From positions 1-41,838 of the forward strand of contig JAJFBJ010000034.1 of assembly GCA_020697375.1 (NCBI GenBank): a DNA stretch of 41,838 nucleotides, written 5' to 3'. This document shows positions 5,888-35,165 of this stretch, piece by piece (positions within the stretch are counted from its first letter, which is position 1; each line of letters begins with the position of its first letter). The DNA is from Nitrospira sp. GTDB taxonomy: Bacteria; Nitrospirota; Nitrospiria; Nitrospirales; Nitrospiraceae. Made by a program: the position numbers and the translations under genes. Under the pieces are notes generated by a model. That model did no database searches, was not told where the DNA came from, and saw only the letters and a program-made list of their open reading frames with translations.

Positions 5888-6001
5888 GAGGGCATTGAAA
5901 AAGACCGCCTCGGGCCTTCACTCGCTGCGGCCTTGCCTGGGACAAAGCGCATCTTGGCGTTCCGGGTTGGGCGGGGAAGACGGTCGCCTTTTTGAACCGC
6001 C
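5888..6001. repeat. Dispersed palindromic element, copy A (divergent)
   Basis: Starts right after the stop codon at 5885-5887 with GGGCATTGAAAAAG and ends with CTTTTTGAACCGCCTGC. The interior shares CTCGCTGCGGCC..GGGACAAAGCGC with copy C near 11630-11665. It is the most diverged full-length member. The 85 bases after it, up to 6086, hold nothing I recognise. Confidence 0.6.
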
Positions 6002-10368: not shown

Positions 10369-11523
10369 ATGATGAAAGCGAACGGACGCGGTCTCTACAT
10401 CCATATTCCCTTCTGTCACCAGCGATGCCACTTCTGCGCCTTCTATCTCGAAATCCATCAGGCGCGCGCTGCGGAGGCATTCCTGCTTTCGCTTCTGACA
10501 GAATTGCGCTTGTACGGAGCAAGCCATCCGTTTGGACAGGAACCATTGGATTCCATTTACTTCGGCGGCGGAACGCCCACCACACTCATGCCCCGACAAT
10601 TAAGCAGGCTGCTGTCAGAAGCCGGAATTCTCTTCGGTCTTTCACCGGATGCGGAAGTCACGGTCGAAGCCCATCCGGGATCCGTCACAACCGACGATCT
10701 CTTCGAACTTCGCGATGCCGGTTTCACCAGGATCAGCTTCGGAGCGGAATCCATGAATCAAGCGGAGCTGGACCACGTCGGCCGCCCCGGTTCTCCCCTG
10801 AACAGCGCGCAAATGGCGACCGCCGCACGTGAAGCCGGCTTCACCGATATTAACCTCGATCTTATGTATGGCCTGCCCGCGCAGACGATCGAAAGCTGGA
10901 TGGTTTCGCTGCAACAGACGATGGCACTCTCACCGACCCATCTCTCCTGCTATGCCTTGACGATTGAAGAAGGCACGCGTTTGCAGCAAGCCATCCAACG
11001 AGGCGCTGCCCCTGCTCCTGACGACGGCCTTCAGAATGATATGGAGGATGCAGCCGAGGCCATACTGAAACAGGCCGGCTACCTGAGATACGAAATTTCC
11101 AACTATTGCCGGCCCGGGTTTGCCAGCCGGCACAACAGCCTCCATTGGACAGGCGGGCAATACTTGGGTGTGGGACCGAGCGCTCAATCCTATATCGGAG
11201 GCCGCCGCTTTGGAAATGTGAGCGATCTGGCCGCTTATAACCTCGCCCTCGGTCGGGGCAGTCTTCCCGTGGTGGAATCCGAAGAACTCTCAATGGCCGA
11301 TGACAGTTGCGAACGTCTCGTGTTCGGGCTTCGCCTGACCGACGGCGTCTCGCTGGCGGATACGGGAGCCGCCTCATTCCCGGGACTCACCGGCAAGGTG
11401 AGCGAATTGATCGCCGATTCCATCCTGGAACGCGAGGGCGATCGAGTACGGCTGACCTCCCGAGGCCGGCGGTACGCGGACAGTGTCGCGGTTGCCCTGC
11501 TGGCAAGCCTCGACGGATGCTGA
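10369..11523 (+). CDS. hemW: HemW-like radical SAM protein (heme chaperone / coproporphyrinogen III oxidase-like)
   Basis: A 384-residue radical SAM protein. The [4Fe-4S] motif is C16-x3-C20-x2-C23 inside YIHIPFCHQRCHFCAFY, followed by YFGGGTPT, the SAM-binding glycine motif, and GLPAQTIESW. HNSLHWTGGQYLGVGPSA is the HemW signature region. HemW proteins deliver heme to membrane enzymes; older annotation as oxygen-independent coproporphyrinogen oxidase is usually wrong, as this protein has the HemW CxxxCxxC context. Start at one of two tandem ATGs (10369 or 10372); a TTG further upstream is less likely. The last codons, GGA TGC TGA, are the left end of dispersed element C, so the native C-terminus has probably been replaced. 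Confidence 0.9.
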   Translation: MMKANGRGLYIHIPFCHQRCHFCAFYLEIHQARAAEAFLLSLLTELRLYGASHPFGQEPLDSIYFGGGTPTTLMPRQLSRLLSEAGILFGLSPDAEVTVEAHPGSVTTDDLFELRDAGFTRISFGAESMNQAELDHVGRPGSPLNSAQMATAAREAGFTDINLDLMYGLPAQTIESWMVSLQQTMALSPTHLSCYALTIEEGTRLQQAIQRGAAPAPDDGLQNDMEDAAEAILKQAGYLRYEISNYCRPGFASRHNSLHWTGGQYLGVGPSAQSYIGGRRFGNVSDLAAYNLALGRGSLPVVESEELSMADDSCERLVFGLRLTDGVSLADTGAASFPGLTGKVSELIADSILEREGDRVRLTSRGRRYADSVAVALLASLDGC

Positions 11524-11714
11524 AAAAGTCCGCCAGCGGCGTTCTCGCGTCGCGCAGGAGGCCCACCGTAGGCCATGGGAAAGAGCCTGTCTCGGGGTGG
11601 GCGGGTAAGAACGTGACGCGTCGCCTCTTCGCTCCCTGCGGCCATGCCCGGGACAAGGCGCGTCTTGGCGCGCCGAGGGTTGGGTGGGTAAGAAGGTTGC
11701 CTTTTTGAGCATCC
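11515..11714. repeat. Dispersed palindromic element, copy C (long form)
   Basis: A 200-base copy with ends GGATGCTGAAAAAGTCCGCC and GCCTTTTTGAGCATCC, and internal CCATGGGAAAGAG and CGGGTAAGAACG segments shared with copies D and E. The left end lies inside the hemW coding sequence and provides its stop codon. The 116 bases after it, to 11830, contain only the leader of the next gene, with GGAAGGAGGAAC close to the start. Confidence 0.85.
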
Positions 11715-18331: not shown

Positions 18332-18545
18332 GCAGGATGCTGAAAATGGTGACCTTCTCACCCGCCCACCCCTGGCGCGTCAAGACGTGCATTATCCCAG
18401 GGCAAGGCCGCGGCGAGCGAAGACGCGACGCCTCACATTCATACCGCCGCCCCGAACCTGCCGAGATCGACTCTTTTCCCATGGTGGTACGTTGCGCCTC
18501 TGCGCGATGCGAGAACAAAGCTGGCGGACTTTTTCAGTATCCTGC
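18332..18545. repeat. Dispersed palindromic element, copy D (long form)
   Basis: A 214-base copy running from GCAGGATGCTGAAAATG to GACTTTTTCAGTATCCTGC, with the internal CCCATGGTGGTACG and GCGAGAACAAAGCTGGC segments. It ends on the first base of the stop codon of the minus-strand gene at 18545. A 33-base shared flank lies upstream (18299-18331). Confidence 0.85.
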
Positions 18546-19622: not shown

Positions 19623-19744
19623 AGGTCCTCTTCTCTAGCCATATCGGCATCGCCAGAAAATCATTCCTACCACCATTGCTGAACACCTCGTCTGTTGGCA
19701 ACCTTGCGCAAGATGCCTCATGATGCAGGATAAGCCCTTATGCA

Positions 19745-19776
19745 CATTTAAGGGGTCCGACCCCTTTATTTCTTCC
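19745..19776. repeat. GGGGTCcGACCCC hairpin repeat, copy 1
   Basis: ATTTAAGGGGTCCGACCCCTTTA followed by TTTCTTC. The GGGGTC/GACCCC arms form a stem. The same short sequence occurs at 20047 and 20715. Confidence 0.85.
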
Positions 19777-19846
19777 GAACACGGAATGTGCGCTTGCAAA
19801 GCACCTCATCTCCGCTCGGTGTAGACTCTGATTAGTATGCATGAAC

Positions 19847-20047
19847 TTAGTTCTTTGAAAGCATGCCAAGCCGACGCATGGACTCCTCAATGATGGGGCG
19901 AAAACCGGGTGGGCATGGCACCTCTCGTTTTATTCTTGATCGTCAGTTCGGTGCAAGCCGTGGACGCAGTTCGTTTAACTCCTTCACATGAGCAATCCAG
20001 CAGGTCTTCACGGCTCGTCCGTCTCGTTTCTTGACATCGTCTTGTAC
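19847..20047 (-). pseudogene. Broken small gene flanked by hairpin repeats
   Basis: On the minus strand a single frame reads QDDVKKRDGRAVKTCWIAHV, then KELNELRPRLAPN, a TGA at 19945-19943, and continues in the same frame RSRIKREVPCPPGFRPIIEESMRRLGML before TAA at 19849-19847. The coherence of the text on both sides of the TGA shows a nonsense-mutated gene of about 67 codons. The motif KTCWIAHVKEL..PCPP..RPxIEESMRRxGML looks like a recurring small protein family, but I cannot name it. The start lies at or inside hairpin repeat copy 2. Selenocysteine use is unlikely (no other sign). Confidence 0.6.
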
Positions 20048-20080
20048 AAATTTAAGGGATCTGACCCCTTTACTTCTTCA
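20047..20080. repeat. GGGGTCcGACCCC hairpin repeat, copy 2 (variant)
   Basis: AAATTTAAGGGATCTGACCC followed by CTTTACTTC: two changes in the left arm relative to copies 1 and 3. It abuts the 5' end of the broken gene at 19847. Confidence 0.8.
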
Positions 20081-20131
20081 CGGAGAAGGTGCAATGCGAA
20101 TTAAGGGAGTATTGCCACCTATGGCATCAAA

Positions 20132-20714: not shown

Positions 20715-20750
20715 CAAATTTAAGGGGTCCGACCCCTTTATTTCTTCCGG
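20715..20750. repeat. GGGGTCcGACCCC hairpin repeat, copy 3
   Basis: AAATTTAAGGGGTCCGACCC followed by CTTTATTTCTTC, identical in the stem to copy 1. Orientation is the same as copies 1 and 2. Confidence 0.85.
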
Positions 20751-22467: not shown

Positions 22468-22540
22468 AGGTGCCTCTCTCGCGATTGTGTTGACGCAATA
22501 GAAATCAATAGCCACACATGGAGCAACAAAAGCATTCCAC

Positions 22541-22706
22541 AGGATACTCAGAATGTTCGTCCAGCAAGCCGCGGCGAATGAAGAGCCGACGCGTCATGTT
22601 CTTACCCGCCCACCCCCGCCTGCCGGGACAGGCTCCCTTTCCCATGGGCGTACGTTGAGGATCTGCGTGACGCAAGAACGCAGCTGGCGGACTTTTTCAG
22701 CATCCT
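22541..22706. repeat. Dispersed palindromic element, copy E (long form)
   Basis: A 166-base copy running from AGGATACTCAGAATGTTCG to GACTTTTTCAGCATCCT, with CCCATGGGCGTACGTTGAGG in the middle. A 30-base upstream flank (22511-22540) matches that of copy D. Read on the minus strand, its end supplies the stop codon of the FAD monooxygenase. Confidence 0.85.
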
Positions 22707-23965
22707 GTCAGATGGGCGCGCGGATCGGGGAGAAATCCGGCAGCCATCACCCGATCCAACAGGGAGAAGGGCGGTTGGCTGCGCAAGCCCGCCGTGGTCG
22801 AGAGCACACGATAGCGCAGACGCGCATTCCGATCGAGCGTGCGAAACACCCGATCCCGTAACAAGGCCAGCAGCGGGTTCCCGGTATTCCAGAAAATGAC
22901 CTGCTCATCCGCCAACCGTTGCAACATGGTCACCTGCGGGCGGCGAACGACTTCGTAGGCGCGAAGCGCCTGAGCCGACAGATCATTGTTCTTGAGCCAG
23001 CCAGGAATGAGATCAGCCACCACGAGCGCATCCACCATGGCCTGCATGCGTCCCTGGGAGGCATGGGGATTCATGGCATGGGCGGCGTCCCCGATGAGCA
23101 AGGCGCCATCCGTCACCCATCGATCCGTTTTGACGCGCCCCGTCGGCATGTAGCCGGTCTGTGACCAATCGGCCAGACCTTGCACGATGGCCTCCACGCC
23201 GGGATCGATCCGAACCCAGGCCTGTCGCAACGCCTCGATTCCGCGGGCCTTGACGGCTTCGTATGATCCGGCGGCAATCATAAAAAACAGATAGACCTTT
23301 TGTCCGGCGGCTGGAAATATTCCAAGGATCGTGCCTTTGCCGACCAGGTAGCGCGCCTCCTCAAGTTCCTGCGGCGCATCCAACATGGCAATGAGATACC
23401 CTTCCGAATACCGATGCACCTGCGTGGCAATGCCGAGACAGTCCCGGACTTTGGAGAAGGCTCCATCGGCGCCCACCACCAATCGGGCGGACACATCAAC
23501 CGGCTCACCACGGCGTTCTGCCTGCAAGCCGGTCACCCGAGAACCGTCGAACCTGAGTCCGGTAAAGGTTGACTCGTACCAGAGTCCGTCGGGATTCTGC
23601 CGCTCCAACGCATCGAGAATGGCTCGGTGCGCCACGTTCGGCAACGTCACGACGGCGCGATTGTATGGAGCCGGCAGTTCGCCATAATCGACGGTGCAGA
23701 GCCGTTCACCGCCCGCCCGGCAAAAATTGAATCGCCGGATGGACTTGGTGGCCTGGGGCGGAAGTTTGTTCAAGAGCCCAAGCCGATCCAGCACCCGCTG
23801 TCCGTTGGGCTGCAAGATCTCTCCACGGAGTCCCTGCGGCGGCCCCGCGGCCCGCTCCAACAACAGCGAACGCACCCCCTGCTGGGCCAGCATCAACGCC
23901 AGCACGGCGCCTCCGCCGCCCGCGCCGACAATCGCCACATCGGTTTCGATCATTGCCCTGCCCAT
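22697..23965 (-). CDS. FAD-dependent monooxygenase (UbiH/PHBH family)
   Basis: A 422-residue flavoprotein of the aromatic-hydroxylase type. VAIVGAGGGGAVLALMLAQQG at residues 8-28 is the FAD dinucleotide-binding site, followed by the LRGEILQPNGQRVLDRLGL segment; GADGAFSKVRDCLG is the DG motif, and LLIGDAAHAMNPHASQGRMQA is the second FAD motif. These enzymes hydroxylate or reduce aromatic or isoprenoid substrates, for example in quinone synthesis or geranylgeranyl reduction. Substrate cannot be told. Start at 23965 is 10 bases after the stop of the preceding gene. The last codons, GGA TGC TGA, come from repeat E. Confidence 0.9.
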   Translation of the reverse strand: MGRAMIETDVAIVGAGGGGAVLALMLAQQGVRSLLLERAAGPPQGLRGEILQPNGQRVLDRLGLLNKLPPQATKSIRRFNFCRAGGERLCTVDYGELPAPYNRAVVTLPNVAHRAILDALERQNPDGLWYESTFTGLRFDGSRVTGLQAERRGEPVDVSARLVVGADGAFSKVRDCLGIATQVHRYSEGYLIAMLDAPQELEEARYLVGKGTILGIFPAAGQKVYLFFMIAAGSYEAVKARGIEALRQAWVRIDPGVEAIVQGLADWSQTGYMPTGRVKTDRWVTDGALLIGDAAHAMNPHASQGRMQAMVDALVVADLIPGWLKNNDLSAQALRAYEVVRRPQVTMLQRLADEQVIFWNTGNPLLALLRDRVFRTLDRNARLRYRVLSTTAGLRSQPPFSLLDRVMAAGFLPDPRAHLTGC

Positions 23966-24521: not shown

Positions 24522-24601
24522 GCGGGGACTAGCTGGCAGCAGAGGTTCGATGAGCGCATGTGAATTTCGATGAGTTACACATGAAATACGGATGGATTCC
24601 C

Positions 24602-24726
24602 GCAGGATGCTCAAAATGTTCGTCCAGCAAGGCCGCAGCGAATGAAGATCCGAGGCGTACCCTTGCGGTACGTTGAGGATCTGAATGATGCGAGAACGCC
24701 GCTGGCGGACATTTTCAACATCCTGC
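24602..24726. repeat. Dispersed palindromic element, copy F (typical form)
   Basis: A 125-base copy from GCAGGATGCTCAAAATGTTCG to GACATTTTCAACATCCTGC. The core GTACCCTTGCGGTACGTTGAGG has its own small stem (GTACC/GGTAC). It stands 8 bases from the stop of the minus-strand gene that begins at 25112. Confidence 0.9.
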
Positions 24727-24734
24727 AGAGCGGA

Positions 24735-25112
24735 TCACTCGACGTCGAACAACGTTCGAAAATGCTCGTCGGATTCCTCCCAGGCTCGGGGGGACGTGTT
24801 GGCCAACCACTCCCGCAAAAATCCCTTTTGCTCCGCCGTCAGCATCTGTTTGATTTGATGCGTGCGTCCTTGCAAGGGCTGGAGAAAGCCGGCACGCGTC
24901 CGGAAATCAAGGGTCGCGGTTCGCACGTAGAGGTTCGTATAGGTGGTCGGGCGGTCGTCTTCTCCTTCACCCTGCACCCAGACCGACAGGAATTTCTCCA
25001 TCTGAAGCCCGGCGCTGTCCAACGCCGGTTCCGCATCGTGAAACAGTTCATTTTCCGACTCCTTCAGCGGAGCCGCCTCATGGGCGCGAAACAAAAAATT
25101 TTTCTTCCACAT
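24735..25112 (-). CDS. Hypothetical protein
   Basis: A 125-residue, acidic and aromatic protein (WKKNFLFRAHEAAPLKESENELF; EKFLSVWVQGEGEDDRPTTY) without signal peptide or membrane helix. Not recognised. The ATG is preceded by GGAGGG, a good ribosome site. It lies between repeats F and G. The 210 bases upstream contain a divergent promoter for the carrier cluster. Confidence 0.65.
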   Translation of the reverse strand: MWKKNFLFRAHEAAPLKESENELFHDAEPALDSAGLQMEKFLSVWVQGEGEDDRPTTYTNLYVRTATLDFRTRAGFLQPLQGRTHQIKQMLTAEQKGFLREWLANTSPRAWEESDEHFRTLFDVE

Positions 25113-25265: not shown

Positions 25266-25323
25266 CTTGAAATTATTTAGCAGTTTGAGTGTCGGCCCTT
25301 AGGGCACAACAAGAATACTTTTC

Positions 25324-25446
25324 GCAGGACGCTCAAAATGGCCGTCCAGCAAGACCGCAGCGAGTGAAGACGCGAAGCGTACCCTTGCGGTACGTTGAGG
25401 GCCTGAACTAGCGAGAACGCCGCTGGCGGACATTTTCGGCATCCTG
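25324..25446. repeat. Dispersed palindromic element, copy G (typical form)
   Basis: A 123-base copy from GCAGGACGCTCAAAATGG to GACATTTTCGGCATCCTG, with the same GTACCCTTGCGGTACGTTGAGG core as copy F. It lies 28 bases before the carrier start, inside the presumed leader; it is the only copy found at a 5' end. Confidence 0.9.
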
Positions 25447-25474
25447 TCAGATTCTTACCTTCTCAGGAGCGGAT

Positions 25475-25675
25475 ATGCAGGTCACGATCAATGGCAAGTC
25501 CGAGGCGATCGCGGGAGGCAGCGTGCTGGATCTCTTGAAAGCCAAGAGCATCGAACCCCAAATGGTGGCGGTCGAAGTCAACGACACGATGCTTGAACGG
25601 ACGCACCTCGAGACCACGCAACTGAAAGAGGGTGATCACGTGGAATTCCTTTTTTACATGGGCGGTGGCCGGTGA
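25475..25675 (+). CDS. thiS: ThiS-like ubiquitin-fold sulfur carrier with GGGR tail
   Basis: A 66-residue beta-grasp protein: VTINGKSEAIAGGSVLDLLKAKS, VAVEVNDTMLER, and LKEGDHVEFLFYMGGGR. Sulfur carriers act when the terminal Gly is adenylated and converted to a thiocarboxylate. Here the chain ends in an extra arginine after GGG, so the usable C-terminus is hidden until it is trimmed; a JAMM peptidase is encoded in the same cluster. The ribosome site AGGAG is 6 bases before the ATG. Stop overlaps the start of the cysteine synthase (GTGA). ThiS for thiamine is the alternative, but the neighbour favours cysteine synthesis. Confidence 0.85.
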   Translation: MQVTINGKSEAIAGGSVLDLLKAKSIEPQMVAVEVNDTMLERTHLETTQLKEGDHVEFLFYMGGGR

Positions 25676-26601
25676 CGCTCGCAGTCAATGCAGATATCAC
25701 GCAGTTGATCGGCCGCACCCCGCTGGTCCGCCTCAACCGGCTGACCAAACCGGGCTTCGCGACCATCTATGCCAAGGTCGAATCATTCAATCCAGGGGGC
25801 AGCATCAAGGACCGCATTTGTTTGAACATGATCGACGAGGCCGAGCGGCAAGGCAAATTAAAGCCGGGAGGAACCATCGTCGAACCGACCAGCGGCAATA
25901 CCGGAATCGGCCTGGCTCTGGTCGCGGCAGTGCGGGGTTACAAATTGATTCTGGTCATGCCCGAAAGCATGAGCATGGAACGAGCCAGCCTCCTCTCCTC
26001 GTATGGAGCGCAACTCGTGCTGACCGCGGCCTGGGAAGGCATGAAGGGCTCCATCAAGGAAGCGGAGAGCATCGTCGCGCAAAATCCGTCCTACTACATG
26101 CCCGACCAATTCTCCAATCCGGCCAATCCGGCCATGCACCGGAAAACGACCGGCCCGGAAATCGTGGAAGCGCTCGACGGCCGAATCGATGCGTTCGTCG
26201 CGGCTGTCGGCACCGGCGGCACGATCACAGGTTGCGGCGAAGTGATCAAAGAACGCAATCCGGCGGCTAAGATCGTCGCGGTTGAACCGGCCGGCTCGCC
26301 GGTGCTGTCAGGCGGTGATCCCGGTCCCCATAAGATTCAGGGAATCGGCGCCGGCTTCATCCCGCAGGTCTTGAATCGGACGTTGCTCGATCGCATCGTG
26401 ACCGTGACCGACGATGAGGCCTATCAAACGGCGAAACTGCTCGCGAAGAAGGAAGGTTTGTTGGTCGGCATCTCGGCCGGGGCCAACGTGTTCGCCGCAC
26501 AAAAAATAGCCGAAGAGCTTGGCCCAGGGAAAAATATCGTGACGATTCTCTGCGACACGGGCGAGCGTTACATCAGCATTGAGAAGTATTTCAACATCTG
26601 A
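25672..26601 (+). CDS. cysK: Cysteine synthase (O-acetylserine or carrier-dependent)
   Basis: A 309-residue PLP enzyme of the CysK/CysM family. The PLP lysine is K46 in PGGSIKDR, the substrate loop is PTSGNTG (72-78), and GISAGAN near the C-terminus holds the PLP phosphate and ring. PHKIQGIGAGFIP is the typical CysK text. It makes cysteine from activated serine and sulfide. Its coupled start (GTG overlapping the carrier stop) suggests use of carrier thiocarboxylate, as in CysM of mycobacteria, but the residues that would prove carrier use cannot be judged by eye. Cytoplasmic. Confidence 0.9.
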   Translation: MTLAVNADITQLIGRTPLVRLNRLTKPGFATIYAKVESFNPGGSIKDRICLNMIDEAERQGKLKPGGTIVEPTSGNTGIGLALVAAVRGYKLILVMPESMSMERASLLSSYGAQLVLTAAWEGMKGSIKEAESIVAQNPSYYMPDQFSNPANPAMHRKTTGPEIVEALDGRIDAFVAAVGTGGTITGCGEVIKERNPAAKIVAVEPAGSPVLSGGDPGPHKIQGIGAGFIPQVLNRTLLDRIVTVTDDEAYQTAKLLAKKEGLLVGISAGANVFAAQKIAEELGPGKNIVTILCDTGERYISIEKYFNI

Positions 26602-26623
26602 CCATTCCGAATGAGTGATCGAG

Positions 26624-26746
26624 GGGGATGCTCAAAATGGTCTCTCGGCAAGGCCGCAGGCGAGTGAAGGCCCGAGGCGTACCCCTTGGGGTACGTTGAG
26701 GGCGTGAACGATGCGAGATCGCTGCTGGTGACGGTTTTCAGCCTCC
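26624..26746. repeat. Dispersed palindromic element, copy H
   Basis: A 123-base copy, more diverged: GGGGATGCTCAAAATGGTC at the left and ACGGTTTTCAGCCTCC at the right, with a GTACCCCTTGGGGTACGTTG core. It sits between the cysteine synthase stop (26601) and the first moeB-like start. Confidence 0.85.
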
Positions 26747-26753
26747 GTTGAAG

Positions 26754-27578
26754 ATGGAATTTACAGAGACACAAATCAACCGCTACAGCCGCCACATCCT
26801 CCTCCCTGAAGTGGGTGGGAAGGGACAGAAGAAGATTATTCAGGCGAAGGTTCTCATCGTCGGCGCCGGGGGACTCGGCTCGCCGGCCGCGCTGTATCTG
26901 GCCGCCGCCGGTGTGGGAACCATCGGTCTCATAGATAGTGATGTCGTCGATCTCAGTAACCTGCAACGCCAGGTGATTCACCAGACTCCCGACGTGGGCC
27001 GCCCCAAGGTCTTGTCCGGCAAGGAAAAGATTCAGGCGCTCAATCCCGACGTCAACGTGGTGATGTTCGAAGAGCGCCTCACGGCAGGCAACGCGATGAA
27101 GATCCTCAGCGACTATGACGTGGTCATTGATGGCGTCGATAACTTTCCGACGAAGTTCCTCATCAACGATGCCTGCTTCTTCGCCGGCAAGCCGCTGGTG
27201 CACGGCGGGATTCTCCGATTCGACGGACGCGTCACGACCATCATCCCGAAGAAATCCGCCTGTTATCGATGCGTCTTCAAGAAGCCGCCGCCCGAGGGCC
27301 TCGTGGCCTCCTGTCAGGAAGCGGGCGTCATCGGCGTGCTGGCCGGAATCATCGGAACGATCCAGGCCACCGAAGCCCTCAAGCTGATTCTCGGCATCGG
27401 GCGCCCGCTGACCGATCGATTGCTGGATTTCGATGCGCGGCGCACCCTGTTCAGGGAAATCCGCATCAAACGGAATCCCGATTGTCCGCTCTGCGGCGAG
27501 CGGCCCACGATTACGGAATTGATCGAAGAAGGCGACGTCGGGCCGACCTGTGCGCTTCCGGGTCAACGTAACTTGTAG
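26754..27578 (+). CDS. moeB: MoeB/ThiF-like E1 adenylyltransferase, copy 1
   Basis: A 274-residue E1-like enzyme that adenylates the C-terminal Gly of a beta-grasp carrier. Nucleotide motif VGAGGLGSPAALYLA (residues 36-50), metal-binding DVVDLSNLQRQ, DGVDNFPTKFLINDAC, a zinc-binding CYRC...CPLC pair, and a candidate catalytic cysteine in SCQEAG. An ATG at 26754 aligns with the second copy (MEFT..); a TTG at 26748 is possible. It is highly similar to the copy at 29386 in the N-terminal half. Carrier partner (GGGR or GG protein) cannot be settled by sequence. Its frame ends 13 bases before the thrC start. Confidence 0.9.
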   Translation: MEFTETQINRYSRHILLPEVGGKGQKKIIQAKVLIVGAGGLGSPAALYLAAAGVGTIGLIDSDVVDLSNLQRQVIHQTPDVGRPKVLSGKEKIQALNPDVNVVMFEERLTAGNAMKILSDYDVVIDGVDNFPTKFLINDACFFAGKPLVHGGILRFDGRVTTIIPKKSACYRCVFKKPPPEGLVASCQEAGVIGVLAGIIGTIQATEALKLILGIGRPLTDRLLDFDARRTLFREIRIKRNPDCPLCGERPTITELIEEGDVGPTCALPGQRNL

Positions 27579-27591
27579 CGAAGGTGTCTCC

Positions 27592-28842
27592 ATGGCGAAA
27601 ATGAAAGCGCTCGTGTGCCGGGAATGCGGGAAAGAGTACCCAACCCAAGCGATCCACGTCTGTGAGATGTGTTTCGGCCCGCTCGAAGTGAAATACAATT
27701 ACGAAGAGATCAAGGGCGCGATCTCCCGGAAGAAGATTGAGCAGGGCCCGAACAGCATGTGGCGCTATATCGACTTGCTGCCGGTGGAAAGCGACGCCAT
27801 CATCGGACCCCATGCCGGGCTGACGCCTATGGTCCGGGCAAAAAATCTCGGGGCCTTTCTCGGCCTGGACGAGCTCTACATCAAGAATGATACGGTCAAC
27901 CATCCGACCCTGTCGTTCAAGGATCGCGTCGTCTCCGTGGCCCTGACCCGCGCCCGAGAACTCGGATTTGAAACGGTAGCCTGCGCCTCGACCGGCAATC
28001 TGGCCAACTCTGTCGCGGCCCACGCGGCGGCTGCGGGGATGAAGTGTTATGTCTTCATTCCGGCCGACCTGGAAGCCGCGAAGGTCCTCGGTAATCTGAT
28101 TTACAAGCCGAACGTGGTGGAGGTCGACGGGAACTACGACGACGTGAACCGGCTGTGCAGTGAAATCGCCGGCGAACATGGATGGGCCTTCGTGAACATC
28201 AACATTCGTCCCTACTATGCCGAGGGCTCGAAGACCCTGGCATTCGAAACCGTTGAACAACTCGGCTGGCGTACGCCGGATCAAGTCGTGATTCCCATGG
28301 CCTCGGGGTCTTTGCTGACGAAGATCTGGAAGGGATTGAACGAAATGCGCGCGTTGGGGTTGGTTGATCAGGTCCGCACCAAGATCAACGGAGCGCAGGC
28401 CGAAGGCTGCTCCCCCATTTCAACCGCCTTCAAGGCAGGCCGGGATTTCTTCAAGCCGGTCAAACCGAAGACGATCGCCAAATCCCTCGCGATCGGAAAC
28501 CCGGCCGACGGGTACTATGCGCTCAAGGCGACCGGGGAGAGCAAAGGCGCGATGGATGCGGTGACGGACGAGGAAGTCGTCGAGGGCATCAAGCTCCTGG
28601 CCCAGACCGAAGGCATTTTTGCGGAAACCGCCGGCGGCGTAACCATCGGCGTCCTGCGCAAACTCGTAAAACAGGGCTCGATCAAAAAGAGCGACGTGAC
28701 AGTCGCCTATATTACCGGCAACGGGCTCAAGACGCAGGAGGCCGTCGTGGACGCCGTGGGACGTCCCTACCGCATCCAGCCGAGCCTGGTCAGCTTTCAA
28801 AAGACATTCAAAATGGGAAAGAACGGTGGTGGTGACTCATGA
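27592..28842 (+). CDS. thrC: Threonine synthase
   Basis: A 416-residue PLP enzyme. N-terminal zinc ribbon with C9, C12, C24, C27 (CRECGKE, CEMCFGP); PLP lysine K110 in TLSFKDR; substrate loop ACASTGNLANSVAAH; GVTIG in the C-terminal half. It converts O-phosphohomoserine to threonine in the cytoplasm. The start at 27592 follows AAGGTG; the longer open frame overlaps the moeB end. Downstream start of the MoaD-like gene overlaps its stop (ATGA). Placement between an E1 enzyme and a carrier is unusual for pure threonine synthesis; see findings. Confidence 0.9.
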   Translation: MAKMKALVCRECGKEYPTQAIHVCEMCFGPLEVKYNYEEIKGAISRKKIEQGPNSMWRYIDLLPVESDAIIGPHAGLTPMVRAKNLGAFLGLDELYIKNDTVNHPTLSFKDRVVSVALTRARELGFETVACASTGNLANSVAAHAAAAGMKCYVFIPADLEAAKVLGNLIYKPNVVEVDGNYDDVNRLCSEIAGEHGWAFVNINIRPYYAEGSKTLAFETVEQLGWRTPDQVVIPMASGSLLTKIWKGLNEMRALGLVDQVRTKINGAQAEGCSPISTAFKAGRDFFKPVKPKTIAKSLAIGNPADGYYALKATGESKGAMDAVTDEEVVEGIKLLAQTEGIFAETAGGVTIGVLRKLVKQGSIKKSDVTVAYITGNGLKTQEAVVDAVGRPYRIQPSLVSFQKTFKMGKNGGGDS

Positions 28843-29111
28843 TTAAGGTTCGTATTCCGACTCCTTTGCGGCCCCTCACGAAGGGCCAGGGCGAAGTCGA
28901 ATCCCTGGCAGCCAATATTACCGATATGATCGGGTCGCTCGACGCCGCCTATCCGGGGCTGAAGAACCGGCTCTGCGACGAAAATGGAGACTTGAGGCGT
29001 TTCGTCAATATTTACGTCAACGAGGAAGACATCCGCTTCCTCAGCGGGAAAGAGACCTCACTGAAAGACGGCGACGAAGTGTCGATCGTTCCCGCGATTG
29101 CCGGAGGATAG
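28839..29111 (+). CDS. MoaD/CysO-like sulfur carrier protein (ends in GG)
   Basis: A 90-residue ubiquitin-fold protein with the exposed C-terminal diglycine: VRIPTPLRPLTKGQ at the start, LKNRLCDENGDLRRFVNIYVNEEDIRFL, and DGDEVSIVPAIAGG. The bare GG is ready for adenylation by a MoeB-type E1. It closely resembles mycobacterial CysO in length and layout. Start codon overlaps the thrC stop (ATGA), indicating translational coupling. It is followed after 2 bases by the NIL-domain gene. Confidence 0.9.
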   Translation: MIKVRIPTPLRPLTKGQGEVESLAANITDMIGSLDAAYPGLKNRLCDENGDLRRFVNIYVNEEDIRFLSGKETSLKDGDEVSIVPAIAGG

Positions 29112-29113
29112 CC

Positions 29114-29353
29114 ATGACCAGCCTGCGCTTTCATATTCGCTTTCCCGAGCCGAAGATCAAGGAGCCGATCATTTACCAGATCGGACATGAATTCAAAGTG
29201 GTTACGAACGTCCGCCGTGCCGATGTGCGGGAGACGACCGGATGGATGGATCTCGAACTAACCGGCGATACGGAGGAAATTGAACGCGCCATCGAAGGAT
29301 TCCGGACAAAGGGTTGCGTGGTCGATCCCATTGAATTGAACGTGGTGGAGTAA
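29114..29353 (+). CDS. NIL-domain protein
   Basis: A 79-residue stand-alone NIL domain: LRFHIRFPEPKIKEPIIYQIGHEFKVVTNVRRADVR, GWMDLELTGDTEEIERAIEGFRTKG. NIL domains occur at the C-terminus of methionine transporter ATPases, where they sense methionine, and in ferredoxin-fused proteins linked to homocysteine synthesis. Here it could sense methionine or help the carrier hand over sulfur; both are inference. The start is 2 bases after the carrier stop. Confidence 0.85.
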   Translation: MTSLRFHIRFPEPKIKEPIIYQIGHEFKVVTNVRRADVRETTGWMDLELTGDTEEIERAIEGFRTKGCVVDPIELNVVE

Positions 29354-29385
29354 CGAACTCTTTACCCTTACGCCTAACGGACCAG

Positions 29386-30189
29386 ATGGAATTCACCGAC
29401 CAGCAGATTCAGCGGTATAGCCGGCACATCATTCTCAATGAAGTCGGCGGCAAGGGGCAGGTCAAACTCTCCAAAGCCAAGGTCATCCTGATCGGGGCAG
29501 GCGGCCTCGGGTCTCCCGCGGCATTGTACCTGGCAGCGGCCGGGATCGGCACGATCGGTCTGGTGGATGGAGATGTCGTAGACCTGTCGAACCTTCAACG
29601 TCAGATCCTGCATACCACCGACACGATCGGACATCCCAAGGTGGAATCCGGAAGGAAAATGCTGTCGGCGATCAATCCGGATATCACCATCAAGACCTAT
29701 CAATTGAATGTCGATACGGACAATATTCTCGGGCTCCTCGCCGATTACGACATCGTGCTGGATGGATCAGACAATTTCACCACGAGATTTCTGGTGAACG
29801 ATGCCTGCTTTTTTGCCAGGAAGACGCTCATTTCAGCGAGCATGTTCCGCTTCGAAGGACAACTGACGACCATCAAGCCGCATGCCGGGCATCCCTGCTA
29901 TCGCTGTCTGTATCCTGAACCGCCTCCAGCCGGATTGGTCCCGAACTGTCAGGAGGCCGGCGTCCTGGGTGTTCTCGCCGGAACCATGGGCATCCTCCAA
30001 GCCTCGGAGGCCATCAAGGAAATCCTCGGTATCGGAGAAACGCTCGCGGACAAGCTCGTAATTTACGATGCGCTGGAAATGAAATTCCGCAAAGTGTCCC
30101 GCCCGAAAGATCCGCGTTGTCCTTTATGCAGCGCGACGCCGACGATTAAGGATTTGGGCGGGGATTACACAGTCGCCTGCACCATCTGA
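29386..30189 (+). CDS. moeB: MoeB/ThiF-like E1 adenylyltransferase, copy 2
   Basis: A 267-residue E1 enzyme with IGAGGLGSPAALYLAAAGIG (nucleotide), DVVDLSNLQRQ, DGSDNFTTRFLVNDACFF, zinc cysteines CYRCLYP and CPLC, and NCQEAG. It is a paralog of the gene at 26754, with near-identical N-terminal motifs. The extra DVVDLSNLQRQ conservation suggests recent or selected duplication. It should adenylate the carrier encoded at 28839. The stop is followed one base later by the JAMM gene start. Confidence 0.9.
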   Translation: MEFTDQQIQRYSRHIILNEVGGKGQVKLSKAKVILIGAGGLGSPAALYLAAAGIGTIGLVDGDVVDLSNLQRQILHTTDTIGHPKVESGRKMLSAINPDITIKTYQLNVDTDNILGLLADYDIVLDGSDNFTTRFLVNDACFFARKTLISASMFRFEGQLTTIKPHAGHPCYRCLYPEPPPAGLVPNCQEAGVLGVLAGTMGILQASEAIKEILGIGETLADKLVIYDALEMKFRKVSRPKDPRCPLCSATPTIKDLGGDYTVACTI

Positions 30190-30190
30190 G

Positions 30191-30703
30191 ATGGCCGATC
30201 TCACGATTCCTCAGCACATTCTGGATCAGATCGTCGCCCATGCGCGCGAGCTCGCGCCTTTCGAATGTTGCGGGCTGCTCGCGGGCACGAACAAGACCGT
30301 CACTCGCCTCTACCGCATCACCAACATCGTCGCCGTCGAAGGCGCGGAAAAACTCTCGACGTTCGATGACGACAAAGTCGCCCATCTGGAACGACTCTCG
30401 CCGGAAGAACGCGCGGAAATCGCCTTCGTGATGGATATGCAGGATTTTTCAGCGGCCAAGAAAGACATTCGCAAACAGGGCCTCGACCTGCAGGTCGTCT
30501 ACCACTCCCATCCGAAAGATCCCGCCAGGCCTTCGCACACCGACATTAAGATCGCCACCGATTACGAAGAGATTTGGGAACGAATCAATCTGCCTGTGCC
30601 GGCTTATCTCCTTGTTTCTCTCATGTATGCTCCTGCCGCGGATATTCGCACCTATTGGATCACCGGCGGCCAGGTCCGGCCGGCCGACGTCCATATCATT
30701 TGA
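30191..30703 (+). CDS. JAMM/MPN+ metallopeptidase (Mec+/HcyD-like)
   Basis: A 170-residue zinc peptidase. E25 in PFECCGLL, then H105-S-H107 with P108, S115 and D118 in PSHTD, forming the complete E...HxH(x7)SxxD JAMM signature. In mycobacteria Mec+ cuts the CysO-cysteine isopeptide to free cysteine; in Wolinella, HcyD trims the carrier C-terminus and releases homocysteine. Here it can do both: trim the GGGR carrier and release the amino acid. Cytoplasmic. It ends the cluster; the next 97 bases lead to a different gene. Confidence 0.9.
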   Translation: MADLTIPQHILDQIVAHARELAPFECCGLLAGTNKTVTRLYRITNIVAVEGAEKLSTFDDDKVAHLERLSPEERAEIAFVMDMQDFSAAKKDIRKQGLDLQVVYHSHPKDPARPSHTDIKIATDYEEIWERINLPVPAYLLVSLMYAPAADIRTYWITGGQVRPADVHII

Positions 30704-33131: not shown

Positions 33132-33314
33132 ATATCCCCCACCCTCTCTATTTCTAGATTTCCCGGTTGCCGCCCGCTTATGTTCTGAAAGCCGGTGTTA
33201 TTGGAAGCCCGAGCGGCGTAACGATGTCGCAACTGACTAGCGTGCTGCTTAAAAGTCTGTCGTCGCCTTCACACACAGAGAAGGCGGCGAATCCGAGACA
33301 ACTGTAAAGAACCT
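33132..33314. other. Gene-free stretch before repeat I
   Basis: A 180-base stretch without a supported gene. Nothing recognisable. Confidence 0.5.
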
Positions 33315-33439
33315 GCAGGATGCTCAAACAGGTCGTCCAGCAAGGCCGCAGCGAGCGAAGAGACAAATCGTACTCTGCGCCGTACGGTGAGTCTCTGAGC
33401 GATGCGAGAACGACGCTGGCGACCTGTTTCAGCATCCTG
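33315..33439. repeat. Dispersed palindromic element, copy I (typical form)
   Basis: A 125-base copy from GCAGGATGCTCAAACAGGTCG to GACCTGTTTCAGCATCCTG. The ends here read AAACAGGTC/GACCTGTTT, a compensated change that keeps the stem. It lies one base from the stop codon of the ABC exporter. Confidence 0.9.
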
Positions 33440-33440
33440 G

Positions 33441-35165
33441 CTAGATTTTGAACTGGGCCTCATATAGCCCGGCATAGACGCCGCTTCGCTTCATCAGTGC
33501 CTCGTGGTCCCCCTCTTCAACAATCGTCCCCTGCTCCATCACGATGATCCGATCGACATCGTGCAGTGTCGTCAGACGGTGCGCGATGATAAACGTCGTC
33601 CTTCCTTTGGTCAGATCGTTCAGCGCCTCGCGAATCTTGACCTCGGTTTCCGTATCGATATTCGAAGTCGCTTCATCGAAGATCACGATAGGCGGATCCT
33701 TCAGCAGCACCCGCGCGATTGAGACCCGTTGTTTCTGGCCCACCGACAACTTCACGCCTCGTTCGCCGATCCAACTATCGTATCCTTCCGGCAGGCGCAT
33801 GATAAAGTCATGGGCGCGCGCCGCGCGTGATGCCGCCTCCACCCGCTCATGCCCCGCTGTCAGGTCGCTATACAGGATATTTTGCCGTACCGTGCCGTTG
33901 AACAAAAATGGCTCCTGCTGCACCAGGCCGATCTGACTTCTCAGGAACGCCACCGGCAGATCTCGCACGTCGTGCCCGTCCAGCAATAGCGCTCCGCTGC
34001 GCGCATCGTAAAACCGCATCAATAATTTGAGGAGCGACGTTTTTCCCGCTCCACTAGGCCCCACCAGCGCGATGCGTTCGCCAGGCTTCACCGTAAGGTT
34101 GATATCGGACAATACGATACCGTCCTGACGATACCCAAACACCACGTTCCGATATTCCACGGCGCCCTGCAGACGTTCGACGGGCCGGACCGCGCCGCGC
34201 CGTTCTTCCACTTCCGGTTTGATGTCGAGAATTTCAAAAACCCGCTCGCTGGCAGCAAGAGCATGTTGCAACATGTGATTGAGCGAATGGATCTCGTTGA
34301 TCGGAGTATAAAACAGCCCCAGATAGGAGAGGAACATCACCAGTTGACCGAGCGTCAATTGGCCCGCCAGCACTTCTTTCGCCCCGTACCAGAGAATCAG
34401 CACCGTGCCGGTGCTGCCCACGAACACCATGCCAGGCCAATACCAGGACCACAGATACATGGCGCGCAGGCTGCTTTTGCTATAGGCCTGACTCAGCTTT
34501 TCGAACCGTTTCTCTTCGTGCTCATGCTGATTGAAACCGATGGTTTCTTTGATGCCGGACAAGGCATCTTGCAGGTAGGCATTGAGGTCGGCCACGCTCT
34601 TGCGCATGTCATAGTAATATCCGTGCACTCGCCTGGTAAACCATGCCGCGCACACAATCAGAACGGGAATCGGCACCAGCGACAGAAGCGCCAGCTTCCA
34701 GTTCAAAAAAAACAGCATGATCGTGATGCCGATCAAGGTCAGCGAAGCGGTCAGTAAGCCCTCCAGCCCATCCACGAAAATCCGTTCGACGTGCTCGGTA
34801 TCGCTGGTCACGCGCGTCATGATTTCGCCGGTCGAACGATTTTCGAAATAACTCAGCGACAGGCGTTGCAACGCCCCGAATACCTGCATGCGCAACGAAT
34901 GAACGGCCTTTTGTTCAAGCGTATTGTTGAACCGAACCCGCATCGAACTGGCCAGGTTCCTCAGCACATAGGACCCAAGTAGCGCCCCTATTACCCAGGA
35001 GAGCAATTCGGGACGCTGAGACTGAATTACGTCGTCGATCACGACCTTGATGAGGTAGGGCGGGACGAGTTCCAGCGCCGTGGCGATCCCCGCGCAGACG
35101 AAGGTCACCAACGCCAGCATCCGAAACGGTTTGAGGTAAGACAGAACGCGAAGAAGCGACTTCAC
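33441..35165 (-). CDS. MsbA-like ABC exporter (TMD-NBD fusion)
   Basis: A 574-residue half-transporter: six membrane helices in the first 320 residues (LALVTFVCAGIATALELV; IMLFFLNWKLALLSLVPIPVLIVCA and others), then an ATPase domain with Walker A GPSGAGKTS near residue 372, the signature LSVGQKQR, Walker B IVIFDEATS near 493, and the D-loop NIDTET. It belongs to the lipid/multidrug exporter group (MsbA/BmrA) and should act as a homodimer in the inner membrane; the substrate is not shown by sequence. The deformylase gene lies 24 bases upstream, same strand. Confidence 0.92.
   Translation of the reverse strand: MKSLLRVLSYLKPFRMLALVTFVCAGIATALELVPPYLIKVVIDDVIQSQRPELLSWVIGALLGSYVLRNLASSMRVRFNNTLEQKAVHSLRMQVFGALQRLSLSYFENRSTGEIMTRVTSDTEHVERIFVDGLEGLLTASLTLIGITIMLFFLNWKLALLSLVPIPVLIVCAAWFTRRVHGYYYDMRKSVADLNAYLQDALSGIKETIGFNQHEHEEKRFEKLSQAYSKSSLRAMYLWSWYWPGMVFVGSTGTVLILWYGAKEVLAGQLTLGQLVMFLSYLGLFYTPINEIHSLNHMLQHALAASERVFEILDIKPEVEERRGAVRPVERLQGAVEYRNVVFGYRQDGIVLSDINLTVKPGERIALVGPSGAGKTSLLKLLMRFYDARSGALLLDGHDVRDLPVAFLRSQIGLVQQEPFLFNGTVRQNILYSDLTAGHERVEAASRAARAHDFIMRLPEGYDSWIGERGVKLSVGQKQRVSIARVLLKDPPIVIFDEATSNIDTETEVKIREALNDLTKGRTTFIIAHRLTTLHDVDRIIVMEQGTIVEEGDHEALMKRSGVYAGLYEAQFKI

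Follow-up and report, generated by a model that had tools for sequence, protein, structure and literature searches.

In the stretch of Nitrospira sp. DNA analysed here (GenBank assembly GCA_020697375.1, contig JAJFBJ010000034.1; its full length of 41,838 nucleotides is referred to as the window), eight genes occupy positions 25475-30703 of the + strand. All of them are intact, and each encoded protein passes its Pfam cut-off. According to our analysis, this block is conserved as a unit and is probably an essential sulfur operon, which unites two known kinds of carrier-dependent synthesis.

The block begins with carrier A (25475-25675), a ubiquitin-fold protein of 66 amino acids ending in MGGGR that matches PF02597 with 39.6 bits and TIGR01683 with 58.5 bits, over its cut-off. 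The GTG start of the next gene overlaps the carrier's stop; it encodes a cysteine synthase of the CysK type (25672-26601; TIGR01139, 458.6 bits, cut-off 350.95), which falls short of the cut-off for CysM models of the E. coli type. It is followed by E1-A (26754-27578; PF00899, 289 bits), a MoeB/ThiF-type adenylyltransferase without a rhodanese domain, and by a homologue of threonine synthase, ThrC (27592-28842), which we consider below as a MetM-type paralogue. The end of that gene overlaps the start of the gene for carrier B (28839-29111), a MetO/CysO-like ubiquitin-fold protein of 90 amino acids with the tail AIAGG (PF02597, 60.3 bits). The last three genes encode a stand-alone NIL domain protein (29114-29353; PF09383, 49.9 bits), a second adenylyltransferase of the same type and also without rhodanese, E1-B (29386-30189; PF00899, 271.6 bits), and a JAMM (Prok-JAB) peptidase (30191-30703; PF14464, 68.2 bits) with the motif ECCG ... 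HSHP...S..D. A previous interpretation made from the letters alone, hereafter the sequence-only reading, had described an eight-gene block with two carriers (tails GGGR and GG), two E1s, and a JAMM, and this is what the locus contains.

We compared 100 loci, consisting of the 80 best carrier-B loci and 20 hand-picked ones, all of which were gathered via carrier B. Of these, 53 have all eight genes collinear and on a single strand (47 of 71, counting loci with enough flanking sequence), which indicates that the block is a conserved unit and agrees with the synteny on which the sequence-only reading had made its proposal depend. The closest named relative is Candidatus Nitrospira defluvii (93-96% identity per gene), and 185 of 198 Nitrospirota genomes possess a relative of carrier B. 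Other gene orders are also found: nine deep Nitrospirota loci have the order MetM-MetO-NIL-ThrC, with the MetM-type gene and ThrC side by side, the Mariprofundus loci have the order MetM-MetO-NIL-CysM/K-E1, and the Omnitrophota variants carry a single E1. Based on these variants, three units are joined in the block, namely carrier A-CysK-E1-A, MetM-carrier B-NIL, and E1-B-JAMM. Among the open-access literature and the few subscription papers covered, we found no work joining Nitrospira, a sulfur carrier protein, and cysteine synthase.

The threonine synthase homologue, carrier B, and the NIL protein

Hasebe et al. 2024 reportedly described the Streptomyces MetM/MetO pair, in which homocysteine is formed from O-phosphohomoserine and a carrier thiocarboxylate, and the S. 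albulus genes are said to have an upstream SAM riboswitch. We examined ThrC, the homocysteine enzymes, the E1s, the JAMMs, and the carriers of 12 genomes. All 12 encode a separate canonical ThrC, 33-36% identical to the homologue of the block. In N. defluvii, this ThrC, named by NCBIfam, is located between homoserine dehydrogenase and the apgM/proposed homoserine kinase-like gene; for the remaining eleven genomes, the assignment was made by similarity and tree.

In the tree, 37 MetM-type rows (36 of the 92 MetM-type loci plus the window protein) and 21 canonical ThrC rows part at 100/100. A comparison of 93 MetM-type proteins (length >380, identity >45%) with the 21 ThrC rows yields 37 alignment columns that are fixed differently in the two sets, including residues around R206/Y209, and an N-terminal Cys4 ribbon is present in 92 of the 93 block-type proteins versus none of the 21 canonical ones. 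The block's protein shares 63% identity with a cyanobacterial relative (L076), and the homologue search with the MetM-type protein gave close relatives only among the matches listed (the best 120 of 8000). The gene that the sequence-only reading counted as a threonine synthase is very probably not ThrC, and probably encodes a MetM-type, carrier-dependent homocysteine synthase.

The genomic context is consistent with this assignment. Of 33 related loci scanned with Rfam, six have a SAM riboswitch; it precedes MetM in the five Mariprofundus loci, without exception, and NIL-MetM in L080. An S-methyl_trans domain is found within large, MetH-sized frames in 12 of 12 genomes, and the other homocysteine routes appear to be absent in most of them. 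A full-length PF01053 enzyme, of the transsulfuration or sulfhydrylation kind, is present in just three of the 12 genomes, leaving nine with none at full length; a full-length MetX-like protein is present in two, with scores under the strict cut-off, as were those of the controls. We also considered the archaeal-type HcyBio route, which was rejected, given that PF01837 is found in none of the 12 genomes. Taken together, the separate ThrC, the tree split, the riboswitches, and a MetH-like domain, in most genomes apparently without the usual homocysteine enzymes, fit a MetM/MetO pathway.

Carrier B would be the MetO of this pathway. It adjoins the MetM-type gene in 90 of 92 loci, and its nearest PDB chain is 3dwg_C (E=2.5e-21), which we take to be M. 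tuberculosis CysO; by this comparison, carrier B, rather than carrier A, is the closer relative of CysO. The NIL gene is found next to that of carrier B even where CysK is absent (88 of 93 loci in all), and can therefore be ascribed to the MetM arm. All 39 aligned NIL proteins match PF09383. In the profile comparison, the C-terminal domains of MetN come first (MetN 3dhx, E=2.5e-8), and they are also the best PDB folds for the AF2 model of the NIL protein (pLDDT 91). The C2 domain of MetN senses methionine. By analogy, we propose that the stand-alone NIL protein may act as a methionine sensor for the MetM arm.

Carrier A, the two E1s, and the JAMM peptidase

Carrier A adjoins the cysteine synthase in all 65 loci having both genes, and two loci (L069:5827-6939 and L167:3704-4822) carry an in-frame carrier A-CysK fusion, with MGGG where the two parts meet. 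One of the genomes (G003) has another carrier A-CysK-E1 set elsewhere than in the block (L093:4210-6293), and the E1 of this set falls in the E1-A clade of the tree. By sequence, carrier A is closer to a ThiS (PDB 2k5p), and we describe it as ThiS-like. Its constant association with the synthase suggests that it is probably the sulfur donor of that enzyme.

E1-A and E1-B, which are 56% identical, form separate clades in the tree. The E1s of the Mariprofundus operons, which have only carrier B, group in the E1-B clade; together with the carrier A-CysK-E1-A set that stands alone in L093, this bears out the division into two carrier/E1 sets perceived by the sequence-only reading. ThiF is the only domain over the cut-off in either E1. 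Both keep the cysteine of CQEAG and two CxxC pairs; across the compared loci, the catalytic-cysteine pattern is found in 66 of 69 E1-A and 67 of 73 E1-B proteins, while the two CxxC pairs are present in all 69 of the former and in 71 of the 73 latter; Mariprofundus E1s are among the misses.

The E1s are scarce in these genomes. In N. defluvii, just two reach the Pfam cut-off, both inside the block; E1s scoring >200 bits number two, both encoded in the block, in 11 of the 12 genomes and three in the genome with the duplicated set (G003), and two further genomes (G009 and G012) have weaker additional matches over the cut-off. N. defluvii has five ThiS-family proteins, namely carriers A and B, a MoaD-like, a ThiS-like, and a TtuB-like protein. 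The MoaD-like gene sits with moaC/moaE/moaA and, like the separate ThiS-like gene, lies outside the block; the TtuB-like carrier, which adjoins a TtuA-like gene, reaches 24.6 bits in the ThiS-family profile search and alone has no Pfam match at 1e-5. The neighbour of thiS in L091 was missed by NCBIfam and is ThiG-like by our own reading. Since N. defluvii has no other full E1 despite its ThiS, MoaD, and TtuB-like proteins, the two E1s of the block are probably not private to carriers A and B. Precedents for an E1 common to several carriers are given in the accounts of TtuC (PMC3980101) and of MoeZR (PMC3227635). Since N. defluvii has thiS- and moaD-like genes at other loci, moreover, neither carrier A nor carrier B is the ThiS or MoaD of the genome, and because of these separate loci it is unlikely that the block's carriers are charged only for thiamine or molybdopterin, the outcome that the sequence-only reading had set against its own proposal.

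Most carriers (45 of 61) extend beyond the glycines. In the 12 genomes, 61 of the 67 ThiS-family places have a glycine tail and were counted, the other six being excluded; 41 of the 61 have extra residues after the glycines, four are fused to MoaE, and 16 end at the glycines. All 13 copies of carrier A and all 12 MoaD proteins have residues after the tail, as do nine of the 11 ThiS proteins, six of the 12 copies of carrier B, and five of the 11 TtuB-like carriers; a sixth carrier has them in neither of its two copies. The ThiS-like proteins of L104, L111, L113, and L115 continue for 16-21 residues beyond GGG. In the MoaD-MoaE fusions (L098, L099, L106, and L110), an AGG motif is found at the joint, which implies that the MoaD tail stays internal until it is cut. 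The places lacking a glycine tail (L118, L119, and L122-L125) are distributed over six genomes. The sixth carrier, found in L120 and L121 (G004 and G005), is CysO/MoaD-like and ends in LSGG.

Counting only JAMM matches that cover at least 70% of the query, all 72 loci with such a match keep the HxH..S..D motif, and the nearest PDB entries to the JAMM are 2kcq and 2kks. Prok-JAB exceeds the cut-off once in 11 of the 12 genomes and three times in the remaining one (G009). A candidate for a second JAMM in N. defluvii (24.6 bits, cut-off 25) was rejected, since this other place corresponds to RadC. In the genome with three matches, a frame of 479 amino acids (G009:C66:1393-2319) has both ThiF and JAB matches and is perhaps an E1-JAB fusion. 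Iyer et al. 2006 suggested, in the part of their work concerned, that a JAB could free fused ThiS/MoaD (PMC1779556). From the tails, the fusions, and the scarcity of JAMMs, it is plausible that the one JAMM is a common maturase of the carriers.

Repeats in the window

The sequence-only reading had also included among the features of the cluster a palindrome between the cysteine synthase and the first E1. The palindrome exists (26611-26757), but it belongs to a repeat, ~130-150 nucleotides long and with a central palindrome, that is dispersed over the window, where blastn detected seven stretches of it. Copies are located at 18486-18545, 22537-22713, 24577-24735, 25301-25455, 26611-26757, and 33312-33447, with inverted copies near 5906 and at 11515-11642; the repeat is also present in 16 of the 100 related loci. 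Among the 67 loci having both genes, ten, two of them in N. defluvii, carry a copy in the gap between the synthase and E1-A, and none was found in the gap of the other 57. The repeat is therefore not a conserved element of this cluster, and we rejected the palindrome as a regulator on the same grounds. A different repeat of 35 nucleotides, with the palindrome GGGGTCCGACCCC, has three copies in the window (19743-19777, 20047-20081, and 20715-20749).

Proposed pathway, alternatives, and significance

We consider it likely that the eight genes form a sulfur-assimilation operon in which two product lines depend on carriers, and for this operon we infer the following chemical steps, carrier-enzyme pairings, and role of the NIL protein. 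E1-A and E1-B would activate carriers A and B by adenylation of their glycine tails, onto which sulfur would be loaded as a thiocarboxylate, by analogy with the established ThiF/MoeB/MoeZ chemistry. The CysK-type enzyme would then use the thiocarboxylate of carrier A and, most likely, O-acetylserine to form a carrier-cysteine adduct, and the MetM-type ThrC paralogue would use that of carrier B and O-phosphohomoserine to provide homocysteine for MetH. The JAMM would trim the residue or residues beyond the glycines and hydrolyse the adducts of carrier and amino acid, the NIL protein would sense methionine and exert feedback on the MetM arm, and the two E1s, probably with the JAMM, would also serve the ThiS, MoaD, and TtuB-like carriers encoded elsewhere. 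The presence of a MetM-type homocysteine enzyme and a cysteine synthase points to two product lines, cysteine and homocysteine, and of the two options offered by the sequence-only reading for two lines sharing one JAMM, this pair is the better supported.

The block resembles Streptomyces MetM/MetO in having a ThrC paralogue beside a ubiquitin-fold carrier while a separate ThrC is kept, in the apparent lack of the usual homocysteine enzymes in most genomes, and in the SAM riboswitch upstream in relatives. It differs in that the pair is accompanied by two E1s, a NIL protein, a JAMM, and a cysteine synthase that has a carrier to itself, and the window, unlike S. albulus, has no SAM riboswitch. 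The HcyS-HcyF-HcyD system of Wolinella makes homocysteine with a carrier, an E1, and a JAMM. The block shares these three parts and has a MetM-type enzyme in place of a MetY-family one; no PF01053 protein was found by Pfam among its eight proteins, and for this reason we rejected membership in the HcyS-HcyF-HcyD type, with which the sequence-only reading had associated homocysteine formation. As in CysO-CysM-Mec+ of M. tuberculosis, whose CysM uses O-phosphoserine, a carrier, a cysteine synthase, and a JAMM are found in one block, with the differences that the synthase scores as CysK-like, its neighbouring carrier is ThiS-like, and the E1s lack the rhodanese domain described for MoeZ (PMC3227635). 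The ThiS/MoaD-E1-JAB-cysteine synthase operons of class 4c/4e of Iyer et al. 2006 have the same four parts, and the passages that describe them give one E1 and mention neither MetM nor NIL (PMC1779556). Finally, T. thermophilus TtuC, as far as its description in PMC3980101 goes, is an E1 common to ThiS, MoaD, and TtuB, unlike the block in that there is one E1 there and two ancient paralogues here.

Not all observations favour a homocysteine line. TIGR00260 still labels the block protein ThrC with 293.7 bits, over the cut-off of 167.1. The portions of PMC12172450 that concern a MetM-like ThrC of M. aeruginosa report that in vitro it acted both as a threonine synthase and as a threonine deaminase, and that its authors found no clear role as MetM in cells. 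The same source gives an identity of 51.6% between a Microcystis ThrC and MetM and cites the MetM/MetO work of Hasebe et al. Our match to MetM/MetO is an analogy, drawn from the reported features of that pathway and from the cyanobacterial relative. The Rfam scan gave no SAM riboswitch in the window or in the ten deep Nitrospirota loci scanned, and other PF01053 enzymes accompany the block in three of the 12 genomes. Among the 198 Nitrospirota genomes, with PF01053 counted at 1e-30, a carrier B relative occurs alone in 129 and together with PF01053 in 56, four have only PF01053, and nine have neither; an anticorrelation between the two was rejected, as PF01053 is present in 56 of 185 genomes with carrier B versus 4 of 13 without. 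If the homologue were a genuine second threonine synthase, the block would join threonine and cysteine synthesis with no homocysteine line. We regard this as improbable, considering that the 12 genomes already have a ThrC and that nine loci hold both proteins side by side, along with the SAM riboswitches at six related loci, the 37 positions fixed differently, and the constant partnership with a carrier.

The assignment of the carriers can also be questioned. The Mariprofundus operons combine CysM/K with MetM, carrier B, and a single E1 and lack carrier A, so that there carrier B may serve the cysteine synthase too, and CysE, over the cut-off in 11 of the 12 genomes, means that CysK could simply use free sulfide. 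With carrier B resembling CysO and carrier A resembling ThiS, carrier B might donate sulfur to CysK as well as to MetM, or CysK might use free sulfide, leaving carrier A and E1-A to another, ThiS-like pathway. This arrangement seems unlikely to us in view of the adjacency of carrier A to CysK in every locus having both, the two fusions, the duplication of carrier A along with CysK and E1-A, and the other ThiS-like gene of N. defluvii. We find it highly improbable that the carriers mainly modify proteins by a conjugation of the SAMP/TtuB type, with the JAMM as a deconjugase and the metabolic genes as regulated neighbours. The score of carrier B is 55.3 for SAMP1, where the cut-off is 60, and that of the JAMM is 56.7 for desampylase, where it is 130, and loss of a JAMM in T. 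thermophilus is reported to alter TtuB conjugates in the relevant part of PMC3980101; however, both scores are under their cut-offs, and the genes are constantly adjacent to two PLP sulfur-acceptor enzymes.

Returning to the operon with cysteine and homocysteine lines, we tentatively put forward a broader possibility, in which the block would be a single centre of ubiquitin-like activation and maturation. At least five carriers (for CysK, MetM, thiamine, Moco, and tRNA) would depend on a single JAMM and on a pair of ancient E1 paralogues, most of these carriers being made as pro-proteins, with tails or with CysK or MoaE fusions, that the JAMM would cut before sulfur loading, as deubiquitinases do with ubiquitin precursors, while the NIL protein would report methionine to the MetM arm.

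If the proposed pathway is correct, the nitrite-oxidising Nitrospira would gain a complete route to cysteine and methionine, in genomes whose annotation mostly includes no homocysteine enzyme among those tested, and the “threonine synthase” label found on many records would be corrected. Two carrier-dependent amino-acid syntheses would be brought together in one operon, a combination of two known kinds of synthesis with a likely wider role for the E1s and the JAMM. The sharing of several carriers by two E1s, the maturation of pro-carriers by one JAMM, and the sensing of methionine by a free NIL domain would become directly testable questions.

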